A stretch of DNA of 64,000 nt from Bdellovibrionota bacterium. GTDB taxonomy: Bacteria > Bdellovibrionota > Bdellovibrionia > Bdellovibrionales > JAEYZS01. This document shows positions 34,470-44,867 of the stretch, piece by piece; the first letter of the stretch is position 1, and the number at the start of each line of letters is the position of its first letter. Below the pieces are notes generated by a model. That model had not been told where the DNA came from, made no database searches, and saw only the letters and a list, made by a program, of their open reading frames with translations. Made by a program: the position numbers and the translations under genes. The stretch is taken from contig JAZKEU010000019.1 of NCBI GenBank assembly GCA_040386775.1, positions 1 to 64,000 on the forward strand, read 5' to 3'.

Positions 34470-34862
34470 CTAGGCGTATAAATCTAAAGGTTGATATTCA
34501 GAAGCTTCTTCTGGAGCTACTTCTACCGATGTCTCTCCGGATGTCTCGCCTGATGTCCCTAAAGTACTCAAATCAATAACTTGCTCCACTTTTGGTTCTT
34601 CTCTTTCAGAATGACCCTTAAAGCTGAGCGTGATCTTATCAATGATTCCGGTATGACGTAATACATCTGGGGAATTGATTTTGGCAGAGGTCACGGCAGC
34701 CATGGGGTTCATCAGTTCTTGTTCTTTTTCAATTTTTTTAAAAGTTTGTGTTGCTTCACTCACGGGTTGTCCGTATGTCGGTGCGCCTGCTCTCACGGGT
34801 CTTTCTTTGCTCATGTCGACTTTGTTCTTTGATGAGCTAATGATGCTGCTAATTTTGTCCAT
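34470..34862 (-). CDS. Hypothetical polar protein downstream of cpaF
   Basis: 130 aa from ATG 34862; GGAGG lies 9 nt upstream, while the open frame to 34901 has no ribosome site. Low-complexity, without signal or membrane segment. The C-terminal third is acidic with TSGETSGETSVEVAPEE, a short repeat. It is on the same strand as cpaF, 79 nt downstream, so it may be the last gene of the Tad unit. No homology recognised. Confidence 0.5.
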   Translation of the reverse strand: MDKISSIISSSKNKVDMSKERPVRAGAPTYGQPVSEATQTFKKIEKEQELMNPMAAVTSAKINSPDVLRHTGIIDKITLSFKGHSEREEPKVEQVIDLSTLGTSGETSGETSVEVAPEEASEYQPLDLYA

Positions 34863-34941
34863 GACCTGCACCTCCATGTGCTTGTTTGGTTTCTTTCTCA
34901 TACTCTGTATCGGAATGAGACAGAATTTTATTTAACGTTTT

Positions 34942-36033
34942 CTAAAGAATATTTTCCAAAAGAAATCCAAAACTCTCGAGCCCTGAGATCTTATGGATAT
35001 TTTTCACAGACCTTTGTCCATGCTCATCGCGCTCTATACATATAATATAGTGAAGTGAAAAATAAATAAGTCTTCGAATGGCTTCCAGACTCCATTGAGG
35101 AGCGCCCAATTGAATCAGCATTTCTAGACGGATCAGAGCTTCTTGCGCCGAGACAGCATGCAGAGTTCCGATACTTCCTTCATGTCCTGTCGAGAGTGCT
35201 AGTAGAAGATCCTTCGCTTCTGGACCACGGACCTCACCCAGAACTAAGCGGTCAGGTCTCATTCTCAAGGCCTCTCTTATCAATATCGTCAAGTCTATAG
35301 GACTGAGGAGCCCATGAGAGTCCTTACGAGTGAGAAGTTTTGTGCTCACGCCGTTGGGAATAACTAATTCCGAAGTATCTTCTATAATCACTGTGCGATC
35401 ATCGGCATTTAAAAGTTTTAAACAACAATTCAAAAAAGTAGTTTTACCAGTTCCGGTTGCGCCAATGACTAAGAAATTTTTCCGATCCTTCATCAAGCCC
35501 AGAATAAATTTGAACTGAGAAGCGGTAAGTGATTTTTTCTCCAAGAGATCATTCATCGACCATCTTTTCTTTCGGTGCTTTCTGATGGACAGAGTAAAGT
35601 CTTCTCCGGAGATGGAGGGCGAAACAATGTGATACCTAAAATTCTCTTGAGTGATACATAAAAATGGCTGATCAAAAGTAAGTTGAGCTTTCAGCATTTT
35701 ACAAAGTCTATGCACATAGTTGTGGTAAGTGGTTTGACTTAAGAAAGTATCTTGAGATTCAAAAAATTTCCCGCCTTTTTCATACCAAATATCTTTCCAA
35801 GAATTGATGATGATTTCGGTTACATCTTCATCATCAATCAAATGGTCGAGGGGCCCATTTCCAAAGAATTCTCCTTGAAGTCTTAATCTGCATTCGACAT
35901 TGTGATTTTTAATCTCTTGATTTAAAATTTTCTCTAAGCGATCGCTTCCTGTTTCTAAAGATACAATATCGATGCTAGGTGAGATTTTAATTTTATTGCA
36001 AATGTCTTTGACGATGATTTGAAGTGGATTCAT
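34942..36033 (-). CDS. cpaF: CpaF/TadA-type secretion ATPase
   Basis: 363 aa. This is the motor ATPase of Tad/Flp pilus assembly. The Walker A GATGTGKTT stands near residues 191-199, with IIEDTSEL (Asp box), RMRPDRLVLGEVRGPEA (Walker B and catalytic Glu) and GHEGSIGTLHA (His box). The N-terminal domain (FFGNGPLDHLIDDEDVTEIIIN) is CpaF-like. The family is usually 420-480 aa; the missing part is in the N-terminal extension. Its start overlaps the cpaC secretin by 4 nt (ATGA). Confidence 0.9.
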   Translation of the reverse strand: MNPLQIIVKDICNKIKISPSIDIVSLETGSDRLEKILNQEIKNHNVECRLRLQGEFFGNGPLDHLIDDEDVTEIIINSWKDIWYEKGGKFFESQDTFLSQTTYHNYVHRLCKMLKAQLTFDQPFLCITQENFRYHIVSPSISGEDFTLSIRKHRKKRWSMNDLLEKKSLTASQFKFILGLMKDRKNFLVIGATGTGKTTFLNCCLKLLNADDRTVIIEDTSELVIPNGVSTKLLTRKDSHGLLSPIDLTILIREALRMRPDRLVLGEVRGPEAKDLLLALSTGHEGSIGTLHAVSAQEALIRLEMLIQLGAPQWSLEAIRRLIYFSLHYIICIERDEHGQRSVKNIHKISGLESFGFLLENIL

Positions 36034-37331
36034 TTCGCCACTCCTTCGCTAAGAACTTTGGGAGTTACAAAAACCACAAGATCAGTTCGGTCTTCTCGAA
36101 AATCCTCACTAGAAAATAAAAGTCCTAGTACCGGAATATTTTTTAAAAACGCGAGTCCTTGATGAGATCTCCCGATGTGTTCCTTAATTAATCCTGAGAT
36201 CGCTATGGTTTGAGTTTGTTTGAGGTCAAGATGACTTTCCACGCGATTGACGAGTAATCCTGGAACGCCATCGATGGCTTGGGATTGATCGAGCATCGAA
36301 ATTTCTGCCGTCAGCGAAAGGCTCATTTTCCCTGAGCGATCAGCGATGGGTTTGAAGGTGAGTAAGATTCCATGTTTCTTCCACTGAATCTCATTGGTTT
36401 GAAAATTCATAATTTTAATAGGGATTTCTCCGCCAGCAAGAAAGGTAGCTTCTTTTCCGCTGCGGCAACTGAGATGGGGGGATGCGATGATCTTGGCATT
36501 TCCATCTTGCTCAAGCGCATTCAATGCCATTTGAAATGGATTGCCCACAATTTTAAAATTTTCTGCTGGGAGAACTTGTGCCGCGTAGTTCTGCGGAAAA
36601 TCCACGCCCAATTTTTTAAATGAATTTTTCTTGAGCTCTACCATTTGCACATTCAGATCCACCATGGGTTCTAATTGAAGCGCATTTTTATCTTCTATCA
36701 TCTTAAATCCTAGAGGCTCTAAAAGCTGATGGTAGCGTTCGATATAATTTTTTTGTTGAGAGGATATAACGGCTTGAAGTTCGGGACTTACGGAAAGTGA
36801 AGGAATAGGTAAGGACGCATCTTGAATGTCTTGATTGATTCTATCCGTAATTGCAGTTTCGAATTCTTTTGATATTTTGGCTTTTAGAATCCAGCGGAGG
36901 TTTTTTTCTTGGGCAAGATTAGCGATTTTTTCCCAATCACTGAGTCTCAAGAGCTCTCCGGTCACATAGACCCGGTTATCTAAGATATCAACTTTTAGTC
37001 CTCTCATATTTTGGATAATTTTTGAAAGAGCATTGTAAGAGTCGATATCTTTTTGTTCCAAAACATAAGTTTTATATTTCTTCGACTGATTGGTCAGGGT
37101 AAGCTCACCGGGAGAAGTGCCTGTGGCCAAGATTCTCCCGCCTTGTTCTCGCAATTTTAAAATCTTCCCATTGGACACATGAATATAGGAATAAGGCTTG
37201 AAAGGAAGCGCCTCCGTTTTTCCCACGGGAACCAGAATAATATCATCAGCATTTGCCACGATCCCAACCAGCAAAAATAAAATAATGCCAGTCACCTTAT
37301 TTTTTAAGTAAGAAATTTTTAAAATATTCAT
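36030..37331 (-). CDS. cpaC: CpaC/RcpA-type pilus secretin
   Basis: 433 aa. N-terminal signal/membrane segment (TGIILFLLVGIVANA), a pilus-associated POTRA-like domain (LSKIIQNMRGLKVDILDNRVYVTG, in part), then the secretin core (IIASPHLSCRSGKEATFLAGG, HGILLTFKPIADRSG, and GLIKEH to VLGLLFSSEDFREDRTDLVVFVTP). It builds the outer-membrane pore of the Tad system. The ATG at 37331 has GGAG 9 nt upstream and lies inside the RAYT-like gene, overlapping it by 35 nt. Confidence 0.9.
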   Translation of the reverse strand: MNILKISYLKNKVTGIILFLLVGIVANADDIILVPVGKTEALPFKPYSYIHVSNGKILKLREQGGRILATGTSPGELTLTNQSKKYKTYVLEQKDIDSYNALSKIIQNMRGLKVDILDNRVYVTGELLRLSDWEKIANLAQEKNLRWILKAKISKEFETAITDRINQDIQDASLPIPSLSVSPELQAVISSQQKNYIERYHQLLEPLGFKMIEDKNALQLEPMVDLNVQMVELKKNSFKKLGVDFPQNYAAQVLPAENFKIVGNPFQMALNALEQDGNAKIIASPHLSCRSGKEATFLAGGEIPIKIMNFQTNEIQWKKHGILLTFKPIADRSGKMSLSLTAEISMLDQSQAIDGVPGLLVNRVESHLDLKQTQTIAISGLIKEHIGRSHQGLAFLKNIPVLGLLFSSEDFREDRTDLVVFVTPKVLSEGVAK

Positions 37332-37968
37332 ATTTTTTTACTCCATCATCATTGGGAAATTCAAAGACACTTTTTTCTAAAGCCGTTCTTACTTGCTCGG
37401 TGTAATAGACATCATCTGTATGGTTGATCCAAGCTAACAGCTGATTTCGACTTTCTGGAATGTAGGAGTCGAAACTCTGGGGTTGTTCGATGATAAGTTT
37501 ATTTTTGTACTTAGAATATTTTTTTGAATCTATTGTAGACCATTTGTAGTTTTCTATGGAATTTTCAATTCCAGCTCTGAGTGGATGTGAATATAAATAC
37601 TTAAATGCATGTGCATAATTTTCTGGGCTAGTGATAAGTGTTCTCTCGTATTTTGATTTCCAAACTCTATGGGTTTTATTAGTAAGAAAGCCAATAGCTT
37701 TGCTAGTGGTGGTCATAAAATAGAGTATAGCTTTATCTATATTTTCATCAGGTGTAGAAGCTAGCAGATGAATATGATTATTGATCATCAGAAAGGCATG
37801 AATTTGCAGGTTAAATTTTTTCTGAGTATCCATCAAGACATGACAAAAAAGATTCCAACAATCTTTTTCATTAAGATCGAACAACTCTTTGTTATTCGGC
37901 CTATTATTTAATTTAGCGACTATGCAATACATATATTCGGTTGTTTGGACTAATAATTTTTTTCTCAT
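37297..37968 (-). CDS. RAYT/Y1-transposase-like protein
   Basis: 223 aa. Y1_Tnp (IS200/REP-associated tyrosine transposase) fold: IHAFLMINNHIHLLAST contains the HUH pair (HIH), and a Tyr in FKYLYSHPLRAG (near residue 118) is the candidate nucleophile. No flanking terminal hairpins of an IS element are seen and only one copy is in the window, so it resembles a domesticated RAYT that mobilises REP hairpins. It is embedded in the Tad unit: its 3' end overlaps the cpaC start by 35 nt. No good ribosome site precedes 37968. Confidence 0.78.
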   Translation of the reverse strand: MRKKLLVQTTEYMYCIVAKLNNRPNNKELFDLNEKDCWNLFCHVLMDTQKKFNLQIHAFLMINNHIHLLASTPDENIDKAILYFMTTTSKAIGFLTNKTHRVWKSKYERTLITSPENYAHAFKYLYSHPLRAGIENSIENYKWSTIDSKKYSKYKNKLIIEQPQSFDSYIPESRNQLLAWINHTDDVYYTEQVRTALEKSVFEFPNDDGVKKYEYFKNFLLKK

Positions 37969-38091
37969 GCTGGAATGAGATGCAAGAACGGATACCTGCT
38001 TATAGTAAAATTAAAGCACTCTGAGGAACAAAGCGGATCCAGTTTCTGAATTATATTCGATTTTCGGACAGTATCTTTCGGTAAATTATTA

Positions 38092-39189
38092 CTATATAGA
38101 AAAAGAAACGGTGATTTGTTTTTTTGAGCTTTCGATTTTTAGGGTGGACCCTAAGCGTTTTAGAATGGACTGTGAAATACTCAAGCCCAAGCCTAAACCT
38201 TTTGAATGGTTCATGATGTTTTCGTTTAAGGCAAAAGGTTTTAAGATTTTTTCGATGGTGTCTTTTGAAATGTCTTTTCCGGAATTTGTGATTTCAAATT
38301 TGATTTTTCCAGTGGCATCATCTTTTGATGTTTCAATTGTGATGGGCTCTGAGTTGTCGCCATGCTGAATGGCATTTTTAATCACTCTCACCAAAACATT
38401 ATCTAGCATTTGGGTATCGCTTTCGAAAGTTTCTTCGCAGAAAATAGTTTTGATTCGGATTTTCTTTTCGTCTGCCAAGCTCGAAAGCTTTCCGATGGCC
38501 TGATCCACAATTTTTTTATCTTGGATTTTATTTTTCTGTAATTTTGTCTGTTCCAGTTCGCTGGAAACCAATTCTAGGGAGTCCATAATGATCTCATGGA
38601 GTTTGTCTGAGCTTTTATTTATTCTAGAAATATATTTTTTTTGGTCTTCATCTAATGAAGTCTGAGAAAGGAGTTCCATAAAGCTTAAGAGTGATGTGAG
38701 GGGAGTTTTTAATTCGTGATTGATCAAAATCATAAATTGGCTCTTTGCCTGATCCAAAGTTTTTAATTCATTCAAGGCTTTTTCTAATTTTTGGTTCTTA
38801 ACTTTGAGTTCACTTTCGAGTTCGAATTTTTCGACAGCTTGATCGACGGTGATTTGCAGATCTCTCGTATCCCAGGGTTTTGTGATGTAACGATAGACTT
38901 GCCCGGAGTTGATCGCGGCAATGACCGAATCTAGATCTGTGTAACCAGTTAAAAGAATGCGAATGCAATTGGGGTGGGTCTTCATGGATTTTTCTAGGAA
39001 TTCTACGCCCGTCATTTCGGGCATTCTCTGGTCACTGATGATCACTGAAATATCGTCTTGTTCTTTAAGGATCTTCAGCGCTTCAGGCCCGGAGCTACAC
39101 TTGAGCACATTGTACTTCTTGCGAAAGACTCTCTCTAGAGCGTCAAGGTTGTCGGTCTCATCATCGATGAACATCAAGGTGTGCTTCAT
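38092..39189 (-). CDS. Response regulator-histidine kinase hybrid
   Basis: 365 aa from ATG 39189 (a TTG-initiated frame reaches 39228 but adds no domain). Order: REC receiver (MFIDDETDNLDAL start, phospho-acceptor Asp in IISDQRMPEMTG, LLTGYTD, ITKPWD), a coiled linker (ELKVKNQKLEKALNELK), then HisKA (NHELKTPL) and HATPase (IKNAIQHGDN, GLGLGLSIS). A receiver before the kinase, no membrane segment: cytoplasmic phosphorelay protein that receives phosphate or a partner at REC. No separate output regulator is adjacent. Its place inside the Tad region suggests control of piliation (inference). Weak ribosome site. Confidence 0.87.
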   Translation of the reverse strand: MKHTLMFIDDETDNLDALERVFRKKYNVLKCSSGPEALKILKEQDDISVIISDQRMPEMTGVEFLEKSMKTHPNCIRILLTGYTDLDSVIAAINSGQVYRYITKPWDTRDLQITVDQAVEKFELESELKVKNQKLEKALNELKTLDQAKSQFMILINHELKTPLTSLLSFMELLSQTSLDEDQKKYISRINKSSDKLHEIIMDSLELVSSELEQTKLQKNKIQDKKIVDQAIGKLSSLADEKKIRIKTIFCEETFESDTQMLDNVLVRVIKNAIQHGDNSEPITIETSKDDATGKIKFEITNSGKDISKDTIEKILKPFALNENIMNHSKGLGLGLSISQSILKRLGSTLKIESSKKQITVSFSI

Positions 39190-39262
39190 AAATAATGTTT
39201 CGGTTGCGAGATAAAAGTCCTGAAGCAAGTGTTTATAGTTTCTAAGGATAAATAAAAGAATG

Positions 39263-39388
39263 TACTATGAAATGTGGCAATTTGAGACGGCGGCCCAAAC
39301 TATGGTCTTGTTTCGTTCACTTAGCTTTAGATGTATCTAAAATAAGACGAAAAGCTTTCTGTAATAGTGGTTTGTCTCAAACAGGAGA
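39263..39388 (+). promoter_or_regulatory. Promoter and nested structured leader of the glycine-rich protein gene
   Basis: TACTAT (39263-39268) is a candidate -10. Immediately after it, nested inverted repeats fill the leader: TTTGAGAC (39281-39288) with GTCTCAAA (39374-39381); inside it TTTCGT (39311-39316) with ACGAAA (39347-39352); innermost TTTAGAT (39326-39332) with ATCTAAA (39335-39341). The outer right arm ends 1 nt before the AGGAG Shine-Dalgarno (39383-39387). AGCTTT (39323-39328) could pair alternatively with AAAGCT (39351-39356). A switch controlling access to the ribosome site is conceivable. Confidence 0.5.
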
Positions 39389-39392
39389 AGTC

Positions 39393-41180
39393 ATGAGACT
39401 TTTTAAATTTTTATCAGTTTTTGTAATATCAATTTTTGCTAGCGATTCTTTCGCTCAAGCTTATGCCGGGGCAAGTGCCAGTGCATATGCGGGTTTTCAG
39501 CCACACATACCTGGTCAATACGGTGGAACGCAAGCTTGTCCTTACCCGATGAATAGTGGTGGAAGTGGTAATAGCCAAATCGATAAGCTTACTTCTGATA
39601 TTGAAGAATTAGAAAGTGCCATCGAAGACATTCAAGATGAGCAAGATGAAATGATGGACGGATCTCACGATAGATATGGGGACGATGATTTACCTTTGAA
39701 GCCAGAGGTGAGAGAGGGTTTACTAACGATCGTGGAATTGGGAGGAAAAAACCTGTGCGACGGTTCAACGACAATCACTCAGCCTATCCAAAAGATGTTT
39801 GATGCGATCGGCGAAGATCCTGGGGTTTATTGCGAAAACAACGGAACTCTCTATGGTGATAATATTTGTGATTCTGATAGCGCCTACACAGACACTAAAA
39901 ATATAACAAGAGCAAAAGGCATTTGTAAAAAAATGCTAGATCGTTATGACACTTTGGAAAAAACAAAAAACAAACGCCAGAAGACGAGAGATAAATTAGA
40001 TGATAAACTTTTTGATCTAGAAGAAAAAAGAGAAGACAGACAATTGAAAGCCATGGAAAGTGGTAAACCTCTTCCGCCGGAAGGTAATTGCATGACTGGT
40101 GACTGTTATGGTGCACCAGAACCAAAAACTCCGGGTTGGAAACAAATTGCTGCAGCAGGGTTTGGAGATATAGCTCTTAACTGGCTATGGGGCCGTGAAG
40201 TTATTAGACCTTTGGGTGAAAAGGCTATCGATGCAACAACTGCATTAGGTTTTGAAACTAAACGAAATATTGGCCATAACTTCCCTTCCTTGGGTACACC
40301 AATGTCAGGTGCATTGTGGGCAAGCTATGCTGGAAGACAAGGCGCAAACATCGCATGTAGCCCAGGCAATGGTTACGGTTACGGACCAGGTGGTTCATAT
40401 GGAAGTCCTTACGGATCATCTCCATACGGCGTATGCGGTGGAGCATTTTACGGTGGATGTGGTCCTGGTGCTGGCGGAGGATCTCTCTTCGGTCCTCAAT
40501 TTGGATTTGGTGGTGGTCTTGGTGGTGGTTATGGACCAGGCGGTTTCGGAGGATTCCCAGGAATGGGAGGAGTCGGTGGTTTTGGCGGCGGCTATGGACC
40601 AGGAATTTGGCCAGGTGGTTTCGGAGTTCAAGGCGGATTGGGTGGTGGTCTTGGCGGAGGATTCCCAGGAATGGGCGGTCTCGGTGGCGGCTACGGACCT
40701 GGATTTGGCGGCGGACTTGGTGGAGGATTCGGTTCTCCATACGGTATGAATCCTTACGGTGGAGCAGGTGGACTCGGTGGCGGTTATGGCCCGATGGGTG
40801 GCTTAGGCGGATATGGTTCTCCATATGGAATGGGTGGCTTAGGCGGTGGACAATACCAAGCGCAAATGATTCAAATGCAAATACAACAACAGCAAGCATA
40901 CGCGCAAGCTCAGGCGAGAGTTTTCCAAAATCAGCAGATTATTGGCTCGCAATTGCAGTCAGCAGTCTATCAAGCTCAACAGGCCCAACAACGTATAGAT
41001 TATTTGTACCAACAATTAAATTCCTTAGGTGGTGGCGGTGTTGGCTTGGGTGGAGGATTCGGATTAGGAGTTAACTTTGGTTTAGGACTTGGCGGTAATA
41101 TATACGGCGGTGGCGGCGTAGGCTCAGGCCCCGTTCCATACACTGGCGGAACAGGCGGCTCAGGACTTCCTTCTCGCTAA
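39393..41180 (+). CDS. Secreted coiled-coil, glycine-rich protein inside the Tad region
   Basis: 595 aa from ATG 39393 with AGGAG upstream. Signal peptide (cleavage after DSFAQ). A first charged coiled-coil (about residues 65-90) and a second (about 175-225), with several Cys between them, precede a Gly/Tyr/Pro-rich zone (residues about 328-488, modules GGYGPG, GGFPGMGG, GSPYGM), then a Gln/Ala-rich helix (MIQMQIQQQQAYAQAQA) and a second Gly-rich tail. It resembles elastic or adhesive surface proteins. It faces opposite to the Tad genes that flank it on both sides. Possible surface fibre or pilus-associated adhesin (inference). No named family. Confidence 0.75.
   Translation: MRLFKFLSVFVISIFASDSFAQAYAGASASAYAGFQPHIPGQYGGTQACPYPMNSGGSGNSQIDKLTSDIEELESAIEDIQDEQDEMMDGSHDRYGDDDLPLKPEVREGLLTIVELGGKNLCDGSTTITQPIQKMFDAIGEDPGVYCENNGTLYGDNICDSDSAYTDTKNITRAKGICKKMLDRYDTLEKTKNKRQKTRDKLDDKLFDLEEKREDRQLKAMESGKPLPPEGNCMTGDCYGAPEPKTPGWKQIAAAGFGDIALNWLWGREVIRPLGEKAIDATTALGFETKRNIGHNFPSLGTPMSGALWASYAGRQGANIACSPGNGYGYGPGGSYGSPYGSSPYGVCGGAFYGGCGPGAGGGSLFGPQFGFGGGLGGGYGPGGFGGFPGMGGVGGFGGGYGPGIWPGGFGVQGGLGGGLGGGFPGMGGLGGGYGPGFGGGLGGGFGSPYGMNPYGGAGGLGGGYGPMGGLGGYGSPYGMGGLGGGQYQAQMIQMQIQQQQAYAQAQARVFQNQQIIGSQLQSAVYQAQQAQQRIDYLYQQLNSLGGGGVGLGGGFGLGVNFGLGLGGNIYGGGGVGSGPVPYTGGTGGSGLPSR
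40375..40857 (+). repeat. Glycine-codon repeat tract
   Basis: Degenerate tandem modules rich in GGT/GGA/GGC codons encode repeated GGYGPG and GGFPGMGG units; for example AGGATTCCCAGGAATGGG recurs near 40551 and 40660. The tract lies inside the 39393-41180 gene and is prone to length change by slippage or recombination. Confidence 0.8.
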
Positions 41181-41205
41181 TCCAAAAAATTTAAAATAGA
41201 AAAAA

Positions 41206-42237
41206 CTAAAACCCATTCACTGTTTCGTGAGTGGGTTTTTCTTTTCTACTTTCGTTTACCGCATAAATCACGGTGCTCGCAGCAATGATTCCCATCGTAA
41301 CTAAAAACCATTTTTTCTTATAAAAAGGTTCTTCACCCTCGCTAATTCTAGACGTGAAATCATAAGCGGGAACAGGCTCAATATCCTGCTGAATTTTAGA
41401 TTCTACTTTGGTTCCTTTCCCAAAAGCCAATTCCCACCTCGTTCCATTTTGATGTTTTAGACAATCCTTAGAGTAATAAACTGCAATCTTAGATTTTATT
41501 TCCCCTTCGTTATTCACAAAAGGTCTTTCACAATTGCCTGAAACAAAAGGAATTCTTGTGGGAACCAAGAGTGGAATCTGCTGCGAACTCACCTGATAAG
41601 TTTGCAGTTTGTAAACATCGGATAAAAAAGTAAGCCTAAACTTTCCCGAAGGAATTTTCACATTTTCAATTTTTTTAAGATCAACAATGTGCCCATTGAT
41701 CAAAATATAATTAAAATCATTCTTAAAAGCCGAAACCTGCCAATGAATAGTTTGCTTGGTAAAATTATTCTTGGCAGCCAAGACTTTCTTAAGCGTATCT
41801 TTATTTAAATTCAGCTTCTTAGGATCCGTATCCAAAGAAAATCTTAGAGCCTGCAATATCCAGTCTTCTTGATTCTCCGGATTGAGTTCACTCAAGCGAA
41901 TGTAAGATAAGAAAATAATTTTTCTATGAACGTCTCTCCATTCATCCATATCGCTGTAGGAAATGACTCTTTCAAAATACTGTCTCGCCAATTCATTGGA
42001 TTTTACGAGGTAATACTTTTGAGCATTTTCAAATTCATTTAGAAGGTTCTCCACATTTTTCTCTTTAGGGTAATTTGTAAGGTAGTACTCCGAAAAAGAC
42101 TGATAGTTTTTATTCAGATTCACGGGAAGATCTCTTTCCTCCAGCTGCACCAGAGGTGAGACCAATAGAACTGTGTCCTTGGCAAAGCTTTGAGAAGTAA
42201 AACAAATCAGGGTTAAAGCTAAAGTAAAAAATTTCAT
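41206..42237 (-). CDS. Exported protein of the Tad region with C-terminal membrane anchor
   Basis: 343 aa. A signal peptide (cleavage near QSFAK) leads a periplasmic helical region (LLNEFENAQKYYLVKSNELARQYFERV, in part; TPR-like character) and a beta-rich part (GKFRLTFLSDVYKLQTYQVSS). A transmembrane helix WFLVTMGIIAASTVIYAV lies about 20 residues before the C-terminus. It is unlike any Tad protein I know but abuts the CpaB-like gene (1-nt gap), so it probably works in the same envelope machine. Its last codons contain the terminator of the convergent glycine-rich gene. Confidence 0.65.
   Translation of the reverse strand: MKFFTLALTLICFTSQSFAKDTVLLVSPLVQLEERDLPVNLNKNYQSFSEYYLTNYPKEKNVENLLNEFENAQKYYLVKSNELARQYFERVISYSDMDEWRDVHRKIIFLSYIRLSELNPENQEDWILQALRFSLDTDPKKLNLNKDTLKKVLAAKNNFTKQTIHWQVSAFKNDFNYILINGHIVDLKKIENVKIPSGKFRLTFLSDVYKLQTYQVSSQQIPLLVPTRIPFVSGNCERPFVNNEGEIKSKIAVYYSKDCLKHQNGTRWELAFGKGTKVESKIQQDIEPVPAYDFTSRISEGEEPFYKKKWFLVTMGIIAASTVIYAVNESRKEKPTHETVNGF
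41208..41239 (+). terminator. Terminator of the glycine-rich gene, inside the convergent gene's 3' end
   Basis: AAAACCCATTCAC (41208-41220) pairs with GTGAGTGGGTTTT (41227-41239), one G-T wobble, with a short loop and further T residues (TCTTTT). Good intrinsic terminator for the plus-strand gene ending at 41180; it also encodes the last residues of the minus-strand 41206-42237 protein. Confidence 0.85.
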
Positions 42238-42238
42238 A

Positions 42239-42727
42239 TTAGATCTCCGTCACGATTTGTGTGCGTAATTGTTTTTTATCTTTATTGAATCTTGTCTTTT
42301 GCGTTTTAGGATTAAGCACCGTTACAAAGAAAGCGCCCGGATGCTGCGCGATTTGAGGTGCATTTTCCTCTAGTACGAGGACGGCAAACACATCAGGATT
42401 GAGTGGCGCCCGCATGATTTTGATTCCGGAGGCGATCTTCTTTGGAGCTCTATTTTCTTCAAAGGACGGAAGGTAGAGGTCCACCACCCCAAAATCTCCT
42501 AAAATATTTTTTAGTGCTTCAATATTTTGAATTTCGATAGGAATTAAAGTCATTCCTTCAGGAATGTAGGTATCCACGCTGGTAGGATCGACTGGTGCTG
42601 GGATATCGTTTTTCTTTTGATCTAATATAAAAGACAAAACACCTAAAACAATAAATCCAATCACAATGTATTTGGTCTTTAAATTTCTAACCCAATTTTT
42701 AATATGGTGTAAATCCAGTCTTTTCAT
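42239..42727 (-). CDS. CpaB/RcpC-like pilus assembly protein
   Basis: 162 aa. One N-terminal membrane segment (YIVIGFIVLGVLSFIL) followed by a periplasmic region in which YIPEGMTLIPIEIQNIEAL and the following beta pattern resemble the SAF/RcpC part of CpaB, although the protein is much shorter than CpaB (about 250-300 aa). Position between TadE-like genes and the secretin unit supports the call. It overlaps the upstream small TadE-like gene by 1 nt. Identification from context and weak pattern. Confidence 0.5.
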   Translation of the reverse strand: MKRLDLHHIKNWVRNLKTKYIVIGFIVLGVLSFILDQKKNDIPAPVDPTSVDTYIPEGMTLIPIEIQNIEALKNILGDFGVVDLYLPSFEENRAPKKIASGIKIMRAPLNPDVFAVLVLEENAPQIAQHPGAFFVTVLNPKTQKTRFNKDKKQLRTQIVTEI

Positions 42728-42912
42728 TACTTGTCTCCATTGCGGTATTCTTTAAAGTTTAAAATCTGTTTACTCTTAATGATCTTCTGTTTTGAAAATC
42801 TTCCTCTTTTATGCGCATTGAAATCCAAAAGCGTAGAGAATAAAACCGCCAATACAATCATAAGTAGCGCGCATTCAATTAAAATTTGGCCAGATGAAGT
42901 TTTGGATTCCAT
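42727..42912 (-). CDS. Minimal TadE-like pseudopilin
   Basis: 61 aa. The N-terminus SGQILIECALLMIVLAVLFSTLL has the G-x-x-x-[ILV]-E pseudopilin signature (Glu five residues after Gly) followed by the hydrophobic helix; the rest is a short basic tail. Strong Shine-Dalgarno AAAGGAG at 5 nt supports translation despite a 34-nt overlap with the upstream gene. It would be processed by a Tad prepilin peptidase, which is not in this window. Unusually short for TadE (about 150-200 aa). Confidence 0.68.
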   Translation of the reverse strand: MESKTSSGQILIECALLMIVLAVLFSTLLDFNAHKRGRFSKQKIIKSKQILNFKEYRNGDK

Positions 42913-43553
42913 ACATCTCCTTTCTTAATAAGAGTGGCGGCACATCTTCCCGCAACCTCTCTTGGGTAATTTGTTTTAGCAAAAATATCTAAAATAATTT
43001 GCGGGACAAATTCCGATATAGGAAGTCTCCAATTCGCCTTGAGAGTTTGCACTTCAGTAAAGAACGGTAAAGTTTCATGATCGGGCGCAATTGCCAGAGG
43101 CGGTGTTTTGTACACTTTTAAATTTATAGGAGAGTACTTTACTCCTTTAATCTTAAAAGGCAGATTCGCCATAATTCTTTGGGCTTCAAATTTTGCCGAA
43201 GCGAGGATGATTTCTTGTTGGCCTCGCAAAATTCCTTGCTGAAGTTGATTTACATTCAGGCGAGCTTGTAAAATTGCAGCGAGAGGAGGAATTGCCCTAG
43301 CCGCAATCAGGGCAATCCTTAATGCTCGCTCTTGTGCTCGCAGAGTCCTTGCGCGGGGATTGAGATCCATAAGGTCTTTTAGTTTTTTACCCAAAGTCTG
43401 TTGTGCTTTAAGAACATGAGTGCGACATTCTTTTTGGATGTCAGTATACTTTGCAATGAGATGATAACTTCCTACAACTGTGGTGAATCCAAAAAAGAGA
43501 ATTGGAATCAGAAAACAAATATTCAAAAATGAAAATCCCATCTGATTTTTCAT
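42879..43553 (-). CDS. TadE/TadF-like pilus protein
   Basis: 224 aa. The N-terminus MGFSFLNICFLIPILFFGFTTVVGSY is a single membrane helix preceded by a Gly (cited in part: GFSFLNICFLIPILFFG), like a TadE/F or TadG pseudopilin but lacking a clear Glu5. A helical region with Arg-rich RARTLRAQERALRIALIAARA follows, then a beta-rich C-terminus with a pair of Cys across the protein. The 1-nt gap after the 43555-43917 gene and the 34-nt overlap with the next gene place it in the pilin unit. Confidence 0.62.
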   Translation of the reverse strand: MKNQMGFSFLNICFLIPILFFGFTTVVGSYHLIAKYTDIQKECRTHVLKAQQTLGKKLKDLMDLNPRARTLRAQERALRIALIAARAIPPLAAILQARLNVNQLQQGILRGQQEIILASAKFEAQRIMANLPFKIKGVKYSPINLKVYKTPPLAIAPDHETLPFFTEVQTLKANWRLPISEFVPQIILDIFAKTNYPREVAGRCAATLIKKGDVWNPKLHLAKF

Positions 43554-43554
43554 A

Positions 43555-43917
43555 TTAAATCTCTAGCCTTTTAACGTAGTTAAAAATAAAAGGATCCAGT
43601 AGCGGAAGATGCATCTTCATTCTTACGGTGGCTTGGGTTCCCCAAGGGCTTCCCGTCAATTTCATTTCATAAGCTTCTTTGAAAAATAAAATAGATTTTA
43701 TTTTTTGTTTTGCCTCATGAAGACAGACCTGTTTTTGTCCGCGCTCTTGTGTGCATATCAAGGATTCATACATAATGTGCTCGACCCAATATGAGGAATA
43801 CATCAGGTACATGGTACCTAAGAATACGACGATAAAAATAACCAGCATCAATGCCATCAGCGCCGCTTCAAGAGAGGATTGTCCTTTCTGGTTTTTGGAA
43901 AAATTTGGAATCGTCAT
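43555..43917 (-). CDS. TadE-like pseudopilin
   Basis: 120 aa. The N-terminus KNQKGQSSLEAALMALMLVIF has the TadE signature (G-Q-S-S-L-E then hydrophobic helix), which marks a prepilin-peptidase substrate (residues cited are near 9-29, in part). The remaining periplasmic part has two Cys (CTQERGQKQVC) likely joined by a disulfide. It overlaps flp by 4 nt (ATGA), so the minor pilin is coupled to the major pilin. Confidence 0.8.
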   Translation of the reverse strand: MTIPNFSKNQKGQSSLEAALMALMLVIFIVVFLGTMYLMYSSYWVEHIMYESLICTQERGQKQVCLHEAKQKIKSILFFKEAYEMKLTGSPWGTQATVRMKMHLPLLDPFIFNYVKRLEI

Positions 43918-44201
43918 TCAGGATCATCTTGTTGTGCGCTACCATTAGAGCGATTGACCGAACCTTTGAAGAAGCTGCCCATATCTTTTTTTTGGTAATG
44001 AGATGCCCGAACTTCGGACATGGCAGCCTTACCGCTGGAGTCGCCTTGAATTGCTTTTGCCACATTTGCAAATTGTGCTTGGACGTTTTGTCCAACGACT
44101 TTCATAATGGCAATGCCTGCCACAGCGACGAGGGCCACAATAACAAGATATTCGATTAGGCCTTGGCCACGTTGATTGGATAAACACTTAATGATTTTCA
44201 T
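43914..44201 (-). CDS. flp: Flp-type pilin
   Basis: 95 aa. Short basic leader then RGQGLIEYLVIVALVAVAG, the canonical Flp motif (G then x-G-L-I-E-Y and a hydrophobic helix) at residues 11-30. Cleavage after the first Gly by a Tad peptidase is expected. A C-terminal hydrophilic tail (about 45 residues) is longer than in typical Flp pilins (50-75 aa total). GAGGAG precedes the ATG. First gene of the pilin block. Confidence 0.9.
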   Translation of the reverse strand: MKIIKCLSNQRGQGLIEYLVIVALVAVAGIAIMKVVGQNVQAQFANVAKAIQGDSSGKAAMSEVRASHYQKKDMGSFFKGSVNRSNGSAQQDDPE

Positions 44202-44358: not shown

Positions 44359-44826
44359 TTATTTCTTCTTTTTCTTAGCCGGTGCAGCTTTTGCTTTAGC
44401 AGCTGGCTTTGCAATGCTTTTCGAAGCTTTAGGTGCCGCAGCTTTCTTAGCCACAGGAGCTGCAACCTTTGCGGTCTTTACCGCTTTAGGAGCAGCGACT
44501 TTTGCTTCAACTTTAGGAGTTTTCACAGGAGCTTTTTCAGCTTTCTTCGGAGCAGCTACGATTGCAGATTTAAGTGCCTGTTGAGCGGCATCTTTGGCTT
44601 TCTTTAAAGCTTCTAAAGGCTTCTTCATCTTTATTGCTTTACGAGCCAAGTAGATACGATCGATAACTTGTAGAGCTTCTTTACGGAGATCATTTTCAAA
44701 AATGAAACGATAAAAACCTTCGAGCTCAGGACCTTGTCTAAATTTCTTAGGTGATACTGGAACTTTATCAGACTGTGCGAAATCGATCGACGCCCCGTCT
44801 TTTGAGATTTTTACTTTATTTTCCAT
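44359..44826 (-). CDS. Histone H1-like Lys/Ala/Pro-rich protein
   Basis: 155 aa from ATG 44826 with AGAGGAG upstream. The N-terminal 80 residues form a helical domain (FYRFIFENDLRKEALQVIDRI, in part). The C-terminal 75 are Ala/Lys/Pro repeats (AAPKKAEKAPVKTP, KVAAPVAKKAAAPKA) that end in KKKKK, like bacterial H1-like nucleoid proteins. It probably binds DNA or RNA by charge. It could also be a ribosome- or membrane-associated basic protein. Monocistronic, with its own terminator. Confidence 0.7.
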   Translation of the reverse strand: MENKVKISKDGASIDFAQSDKVPVSPKKFRQGPELEGFYRFIFENDLRKEALQVIDRIYLARKAIKMKKPLEALKKAKDAAQQALKSAIVAAPKKAEKAPVKTPKVEAKVAAPKAVKTAKVAAPVAKKAAAPKASKSIAKPAAKAKAAPAKKKKK

Positions 44827-44845
44827 TGATTCTCCTCTGATTTTC

Positions 44846-44867
44846 AGTGCTTGCTGTAGCAAGCGCT
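44846..44867. repeat. REP-like hairpin upstream of the histone-like gene
   Basis: AGTGCTTGC (44846-44854) and GCAAGCGCT (44859-44867) with a TGTA loop and one wobble pair. The preceding TTTTC and the arms match the copy at 47426. It lies in the divergent region between the H1-like gene and folD. Confidence 0.65.

Follow-up and report, generated by a model that had tools for sequence, protein, structure and literature searches.

What can be built from a set of Tad pilus genes that lies apart from the usual platform? The question is raised by a 64,000-nucleotide stretch from a Bdellovibrionota genome of 2.86 Mb (positions 1 to 64,000 of contig JAZKEU010000019.1, our C19; hereafter the window), in which genes for a Flp pilin, minor pilins, a CpaC-type secretin and a CpaF-type ATPase form a locus that has no linked TadB/TadC platform, no TadZ and no TadV/CpaA prepilin peptidase. 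We consider it probable that this locus encodes most of a second, split filament machine of the Tad type (type IVc), separate from the Kil/hit-type Tad pilus that the cells also encode, with TadB2 and TadC2, a diverged pair of proteins encoded elsewhere in the genome, as its platform. That the locus supplies structural parts of a second Tad-type machine is well supported; the partnership with TadB2/TadC2 is moderately supported by sequence comparison. G, C and L numbers below are our designations for genomes, contigs and loci. The open reading frames (ORFs) named in an earlier prediction made from the window's letters (the original prediction) are all present, with positions and strands as predicted; they are given here with one neighbour.

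43914..44201, minus strand: Flp (flp3-type) major pilin, 95 amino acids (aa), GQGLIEY site, phmmer match to the same-position Flp of relatives
43555..43917, minus strand: TadE-like minor pilin, 120 aa, motif GQSSLE, supported by synteny
42879..43553, minus strand: TadG-like minor pilin, 224 aa, GF leader without Glu5, two conserved Cys
42727..42912, minus strand: mini-pilin, 61 aa, motif GQILIE
42239..42727, minus strand: short membrane-anchored protein at the CpaB position, 162 aa, CpaB homology unsupported
41206..42237, minus strand: secreted protein with a C-terminal membrane anchor, supported by alignment and synteny
39393..41180, plus strand (opposite to the rest): secreted coiled-coil/Gly-rich protein with a C-terminal Arg, reverse-strand orthologue in relatives
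38092..39189, minus strand: REC + HisKA + HATPase protein (REC-kinase), a conserved member with same-place orthologues
36030..37331, minus strand: CpaC/RcpA-type secretin, assigned by Secretin family match and hhalign
34942..36033, minus strand: CpaF/TadA-type ATPase, Walker A GATGTGKT present
37297..37968, minus strand: RAYT (REP-associated tyrosine transposase), a local insertion outside the machine
44359..44862, minus strand: small basic protein directly upstream of flp, a conserved neighbour whose membership is uncertain

At the level of sequence, the CpaF and CpaC identities are secure. CpaF matches T2SSE (E 5e-34) and the TadA family model TIGR03819 (E 1e-64, below the equivalog cut-off of that model), and CpaC matches the Pfam Secretin family (E 1e-33) and, by hhalign, reference CpaC proteins (E 3e-53). 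The Flp has a canonical GQGLIEY site and matches Flp_Fap weakly (E 6e-7; 29.7 bits, cut-off 32.2); for the TadE-like, mini- and TadG-like genes Pfam gave no significant match. Motif counts come from 25 orthologous loci, obtained with a filter that was loosened once after its first version missed the mini-pilins. A GQGLIEY-type Flp motif was found automatically in 23/25 loci, the two exceptions being a locus whose fetched stretch contains no Flp gene and another passed over by the filter. Of the three genes originally described as pseudopilin-like, the TadE-like gene has a prepilin motif with Glu5 in 25/25 loci (Ala replaces Gly-1 in two) and the mini-pilin is represented by a small GQxxxE ORF at its place in 22/25, but the TadG-like gene lacks Glu5 in 25/25. 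Pilins of the flp3 type share a C-terminal tail, K-K-D-[LF]-x-x-F-[FM], which the tail of the window Flp resembles and which is absent from the ordinary Flp of the same genome.

The arrangement is old. Our phylum sample comprised 141 genomes of the order Bdellovibrionales, 3 of its sister order and 225 others, and gene order was read in about 40 loci by ORF calling and phmmer. The same order (flp, tadE-like, tadG-like, mini-pilin, short CpaB-like, anchored protein, Gly-rich on the opposite strand, REC-kinase, cpaC, cpaF) occurs at the same chromosomal position across Bdellovibrionales and the sister order, and in nothing else in the sample, flanked in relatives by FolD and the small basic protein on one side and by AspS/HisS on the other. 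The window secretin was matched in 139/141 genomes of the order, with a minority having some other secretin as the best match; among the matches listed, its relatives include several Bdellovibrionaceae and metagenome-assembled genomes of Bdellovibrionales. A profile of the short CpaB-like protein had matches in 130 of the 141 Bdellovibrionales genomes, in all 3 from the sister order and in 0 of the 225 others. Two sister-order loci have the same arrangement through cpaF, and the third, ended by its contig, has the part from flp to the CpaB-like gene. The locus had been called reduced and rearranged; the arrangement is instead order-wide and ancestral, and its synteny, together with a separate ordinary Tad locus, rules out a remnant or rearranged copy of the latter. 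Of the genes taken to be inserted, RAYT is indeed a local insertion, but the REC-kinase and Gly-rich genes are conserved members. The proposal of a gene set distinct from ordinary Tad was borne out: a pilin, minor pilins, a secretin, an ATPase, and anchored and Gly-rich proteins of its own are kept together in relatives, and the genes at 39393 and 41206, for which a linkage check had been suggested, are linked to Tad genes there.

The ordinary Tad/hit-type locus of the window genome lies on C9:178-194.6 kb and encodes an RHS-repeat-type protein, TadB, a TadZ-CpaF fusion, CpaC, CpaB, two TadE-type proteins, Flp proteins and a TadV-type peptidase; TadC of this set is on C3 with FHA-type genes. 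The RHS reading rests on YD-type repeats and on the published description of Bd0109, which the C9 protein resembles (PMC4267844). The TadZ-like ATPase and CpaF share one 720-aa ORF (L023 5606-7768, G000:C9), and CpaF open frames of 722-756 aa are also found in G069, G071, G072, G090, G138 and G140. Given that a complete ordinary set is present elsewhere, the window genes are a second, paralogous set. The predicted absence of TadB/TadC, TadZ and the peptidase is thus correct for the locus but not for the genome, which has the ordinary set on C9/C3 (TadZ as the fusion) and the diverged pair on C24. Two A24 peptidases lie outside the window locus, in the C9 Tad locus and on C7, and could process the window pilins in trans. 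Across the order, each genome has one conventional TadB and one conventional TadC, and mostly three or four CpaF-type ATPases. A third CpaF-type ATPase of the window genome (L026 4975-6078, G000:C12), probably the published bd0793, is encoded beside a histidine kinase, with no Tad, pilin or secretin neighbours.

In complete genomes, T2SSF found weak matches lying side by side, which led to TadB2 (about 250 aa) and TadC2 (about 143 aa, roughly half the length of TadC), a strongly diverged pair kept in Bdellovibrio and relatives and unlinked to the window locus. In the relative genome G004, which we take to be B. bacteriovorus HD100, a 259-aa TadB-like and a 145-aa TadC-like gene form the pair at 3,669,307-3,670,511; the window genome has it on C24, with TadB2 at C24:53657-54427 by TadB2 profile. 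In hhalign comparisons, TadB2 matches reference TadB with a probability of 97.6 (E 3e-12) and TadC with 88.2, and TadC2 matches reference TadC with 96.7 (E 3e-10) and TadB with 70.1. Pfam T2SSF is reached by 5/18 TadC2 and 1/23 TadB2 members, and PF00482 alone is insufficient, having missed the window genome's own pair at E 1. Weak PF00482 matches on C23 were rejected as a platform: there is no pair there. The possibility that the genome has no further platform is ruled out by the C24 pair. A TadB2 profile matched 131/141 genomes of the order, the window genome included, and a broader one matched every genome of the order that is at least 90% complete (weakest E 2e-12). The pair commonly has an Mla-type ABC operon on one side and cysteine synthase on the other; in the window's own lineage the context varies from this. 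Genes for a small protein that looks secreted and for a kinase-like ORF (about 390 aa) often follow the pair (L229 8816-9196; L232, L237, L241-L245).

Which ATPase does this pair serve? We compared patristic distances from FastTree for 26 genomes, with correction for AspS on 24 of them, designating the CpaF and secretin of the window locus CpaF2 and CpaC2. AspS-corrected partial correlations (r, n=24) were 0.79 for TadB2-TadC2, 0.79 for TadB2-CpaF2 and 0.66 for TadC2-CpaF2, compared with 0.65 for TadB2-main CpaF, 0.55 for TadB2-main TadB and 0.47 for TadB2-CpaC2. With main TadB and main CpaF as further covariates, TadB2-CpaF2 was 0.64, and 0.61 when six close relatives were also removed; linear and log versions, with or without close relatives and with two covariate sets, all point in the same direction. 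The TadB2-CpaC2 correlation is weak, and under the strictest versions it is no longer significant (P 0.10-0.14). Since the matrices share a phylogeny, contain long and probably saturated distances, and do not cover the third CpaF, we regard the co-variation as support rather than proof. Comparing the genomes that lack CpaF2 with those that lack TadB2 tells nothing, as nearly every genome of the order has both.

HD100 is known to have four Flp pilins. From flp to cpaF, locus L161 of G004 counts exactly 11 genes; in published numbering flp3 is bd3297 (PMC5430801), and bd3306 and bd3307 are a pilQ-type secretin and cpaF (PMC3818213), such that the counterpart of the window locus is bd3297-bd3307. 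In HD100, flp3 is silent and dispensable under laboratory conditions and has been termed not TAD-associated (PMC5430801), and bd3307 cpaF is reported to be at a lower level in host-independent strains than it is in attack phase (PMC3818213). The system had been put forward as undescribed. It is not wholly so, because its Flp corresponds to flp3/bd3297 and bd3306/bd3307 have already been named, but no paper in the literature searched names a set of the bd3297-bd3307 type as a Tad system.

The remaining genes are less easily placed. The short periplasmic membrane protein resembles CpaB by position, size and a single N-terminal membrane helix. Its CpaB identity, as originally suggested, was tested three ways and found no support: profile comparison (hhalign) gave probabilities of 0.4 and 1.3, and a low-confidence model yielded no useful Foldseek match. 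The low-confidence model of the 41206 protein, built from a two-sequence alignment (pLDDT, the model's confidence score, 52), was used for secondary structure only, and has a helical repeat-like core and a C-terminal membrane helix. An orthologous reverse-strand ORF for the Gly-rich protein is found at the same place in nearly all complete loci, L062 (G068) being a locus otherwise kept without it; the orthologues begin like Sec-secreted proteins, and the last residue is Arg in 16/16 examined. Same-place orthologues of the REC-kinase match with E 1e-74 to 1e-132. The RAYT reaches 54 bits against NCBIfam REP_Tyr_transpos, below the 80-bit cut-off, and is ruled out as a member of the system, being specific to the window and absent at this place in the relatives examined. 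The junction between the REC-kinase gene and cpaC carries unrelated inserts in several genomes (window 37297-37968; L066, L075, L173), suggesting that cpaC-cpaF is a separate transcription unit. Many relatives have an amidohydrolase gene on the opposite strand inside the cluster (L063-L065, L072, L074, L161-L164, L174), which the window does not. The small basic protein beside flp is kept in nearly all loci examined (E 1e-18 to 1e-29 in relatives). Adjoining cpaF, a small conserved protein is encoded at 34470-34901; its strand is that of cpaF here and the opposite one in L062 and other loci.

If the window locus and TadB2/TadC2 do form one machine, its pilins would be cleaved by a borrowed prepilin peptidase, TadV or the type IVa enzyme, and a CpaF hexamer would drive TadB2/TadC2 to assemble Flp3 beneath a tip of TadE-like, mini- and TadG-like pilins; such minor-pilin tips occur on Tad pili (PMC12075869). 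The filament would pass through the CpaC secretin, with the short CpaB-like protein perhaps in an alignment-ring role, the REC-kinase may gate the system, and the Gly-rich protein may work on the cell surface, either as an anchor or as a partner of the filament. Its likeliest job would be contact or attachment under a condition that laboratory prey does not reproduce, since flp3 is silent and dispensable with such prey. The set might also, as originally suggested, build a specialised fibre or a machine for secretion. Several points weigh against a second machine of this kind. No filament has been seen, flp3 being silent and dispensable in laboratory HD100 (PMC5430801); the short protein failed as a CpaB in profile tests; the third CpaF on C12 could be the partner of TadB2/TadC2; sister-order TadB2 profile matches are weak (E ~1e-7), like those of ordinary TadB in other phylum members; and no second TadZ or pilotin turned up, with no genome-wide search for a second TadZ having been made. 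More tentatively, and with rather less than even confidence, we propose a distinct minimal Tad subtype ('Tad2') of the class Bdellovibrionia, with split genes, a platform reduced to TadB2 (250 aa) and a TadC2 of half the usual size, a short alignment protein particular to the lineage, an Flp with a tail and a Gly-rich partner at the surface, all maintained by strong selection for a role in contact missed by laboratory predation assays.

Just as PilB, PilT and PilU share one PilC, the window genes might be an accessory set, with alternative pilins, secretin and motor docking on the ordinary TadB/TadC while TadB2/TadC2 serve the third CpaF or something else. The excess of CpaF-type ATPases over conventional platforms, the lack of pilin or secretin neighbours for the third CpaF, and the reported need for the main tadC (Bd0470) in predation (PMC6561027) fit this arrangement; TadB2 distances, however, track CpaF2 as well as TadC2, and better than main CpaF or main TadB, and we think a shared platform unlikely. 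We are more doubtful still that Flp3 and the minor pilins form a short pseudopilus-type piston exporting the Gly-rich protein through the CpaC secretin. That protein's gene is nearly always adjacent, its Sec-like start and terminal Arg could reflect export and a sorting signal, and the TadG-like protein lacks Glu5, as GspK does, but the gene is on the opposite strand and missing from L062, and the window set has a Flp-like pilin and no GspG-type major pseudopilin, GspF/PilC-size two-domain proteins being found at other loci. The silence of flp3 in HD100 and its deletion without phenotype (PMC5430801) would also suit a decaying Tad relic with no current function; intact ORFs across very diverse genera, including those with genomes of 1.2-1.5 Mb, in fixed order and with invariant motifs, make this very improbable.

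Research on Bdellovibrio-type predators looks at them as living antibiotics, and their entry into prey depends centrally on pili. Should flp3 be part of a complete, conserved second machine that has a motor, a secretin and a cryptic platform to itself, mutants in the known locus would leave that machine untouched, and the half-size TadC would be informative on the minimal platform of a type IV filament; the locus is almost unstudied and is kept by nearly every Bdellovibrio-type bacterium. Its closest known counterpart, the flp3 region of HD100 (bd3297-bd3307), has the same genes at the same place, the window copy differing by the missing amidohydrolase gene and the RAYT insertion. The ordinary Tad/Kil-type Bdellovibrio locus (bd0108-bd0119, with bd0470 tadC), whose counterpart here is on C9/C3, has Flp, TadE-type pilins, CpaC, CpaF, TadB and TadC; by contrast, the window set lacks a linked platform, TadZ and peptidase, has a CpaF and a CpaC that are paralogues in their own right, and makes pilins with the C-terminal tail. 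The short protein is like the RcpC/CpaB alignment complex (PMC12307814) in its single N-terminal membrane helix and its place beside secretin-system genes, but is half the length, with no detectable SAF domain and no significant profile match. Lastly, the Myxococcus Kil Tad pilus with its Tip complexes (PMC12075869, PMC8460266) likewise combines a TadE/F/G-like trio (KilL/M/N) with a Tad core, whereas the window minor pilins are much smaller.

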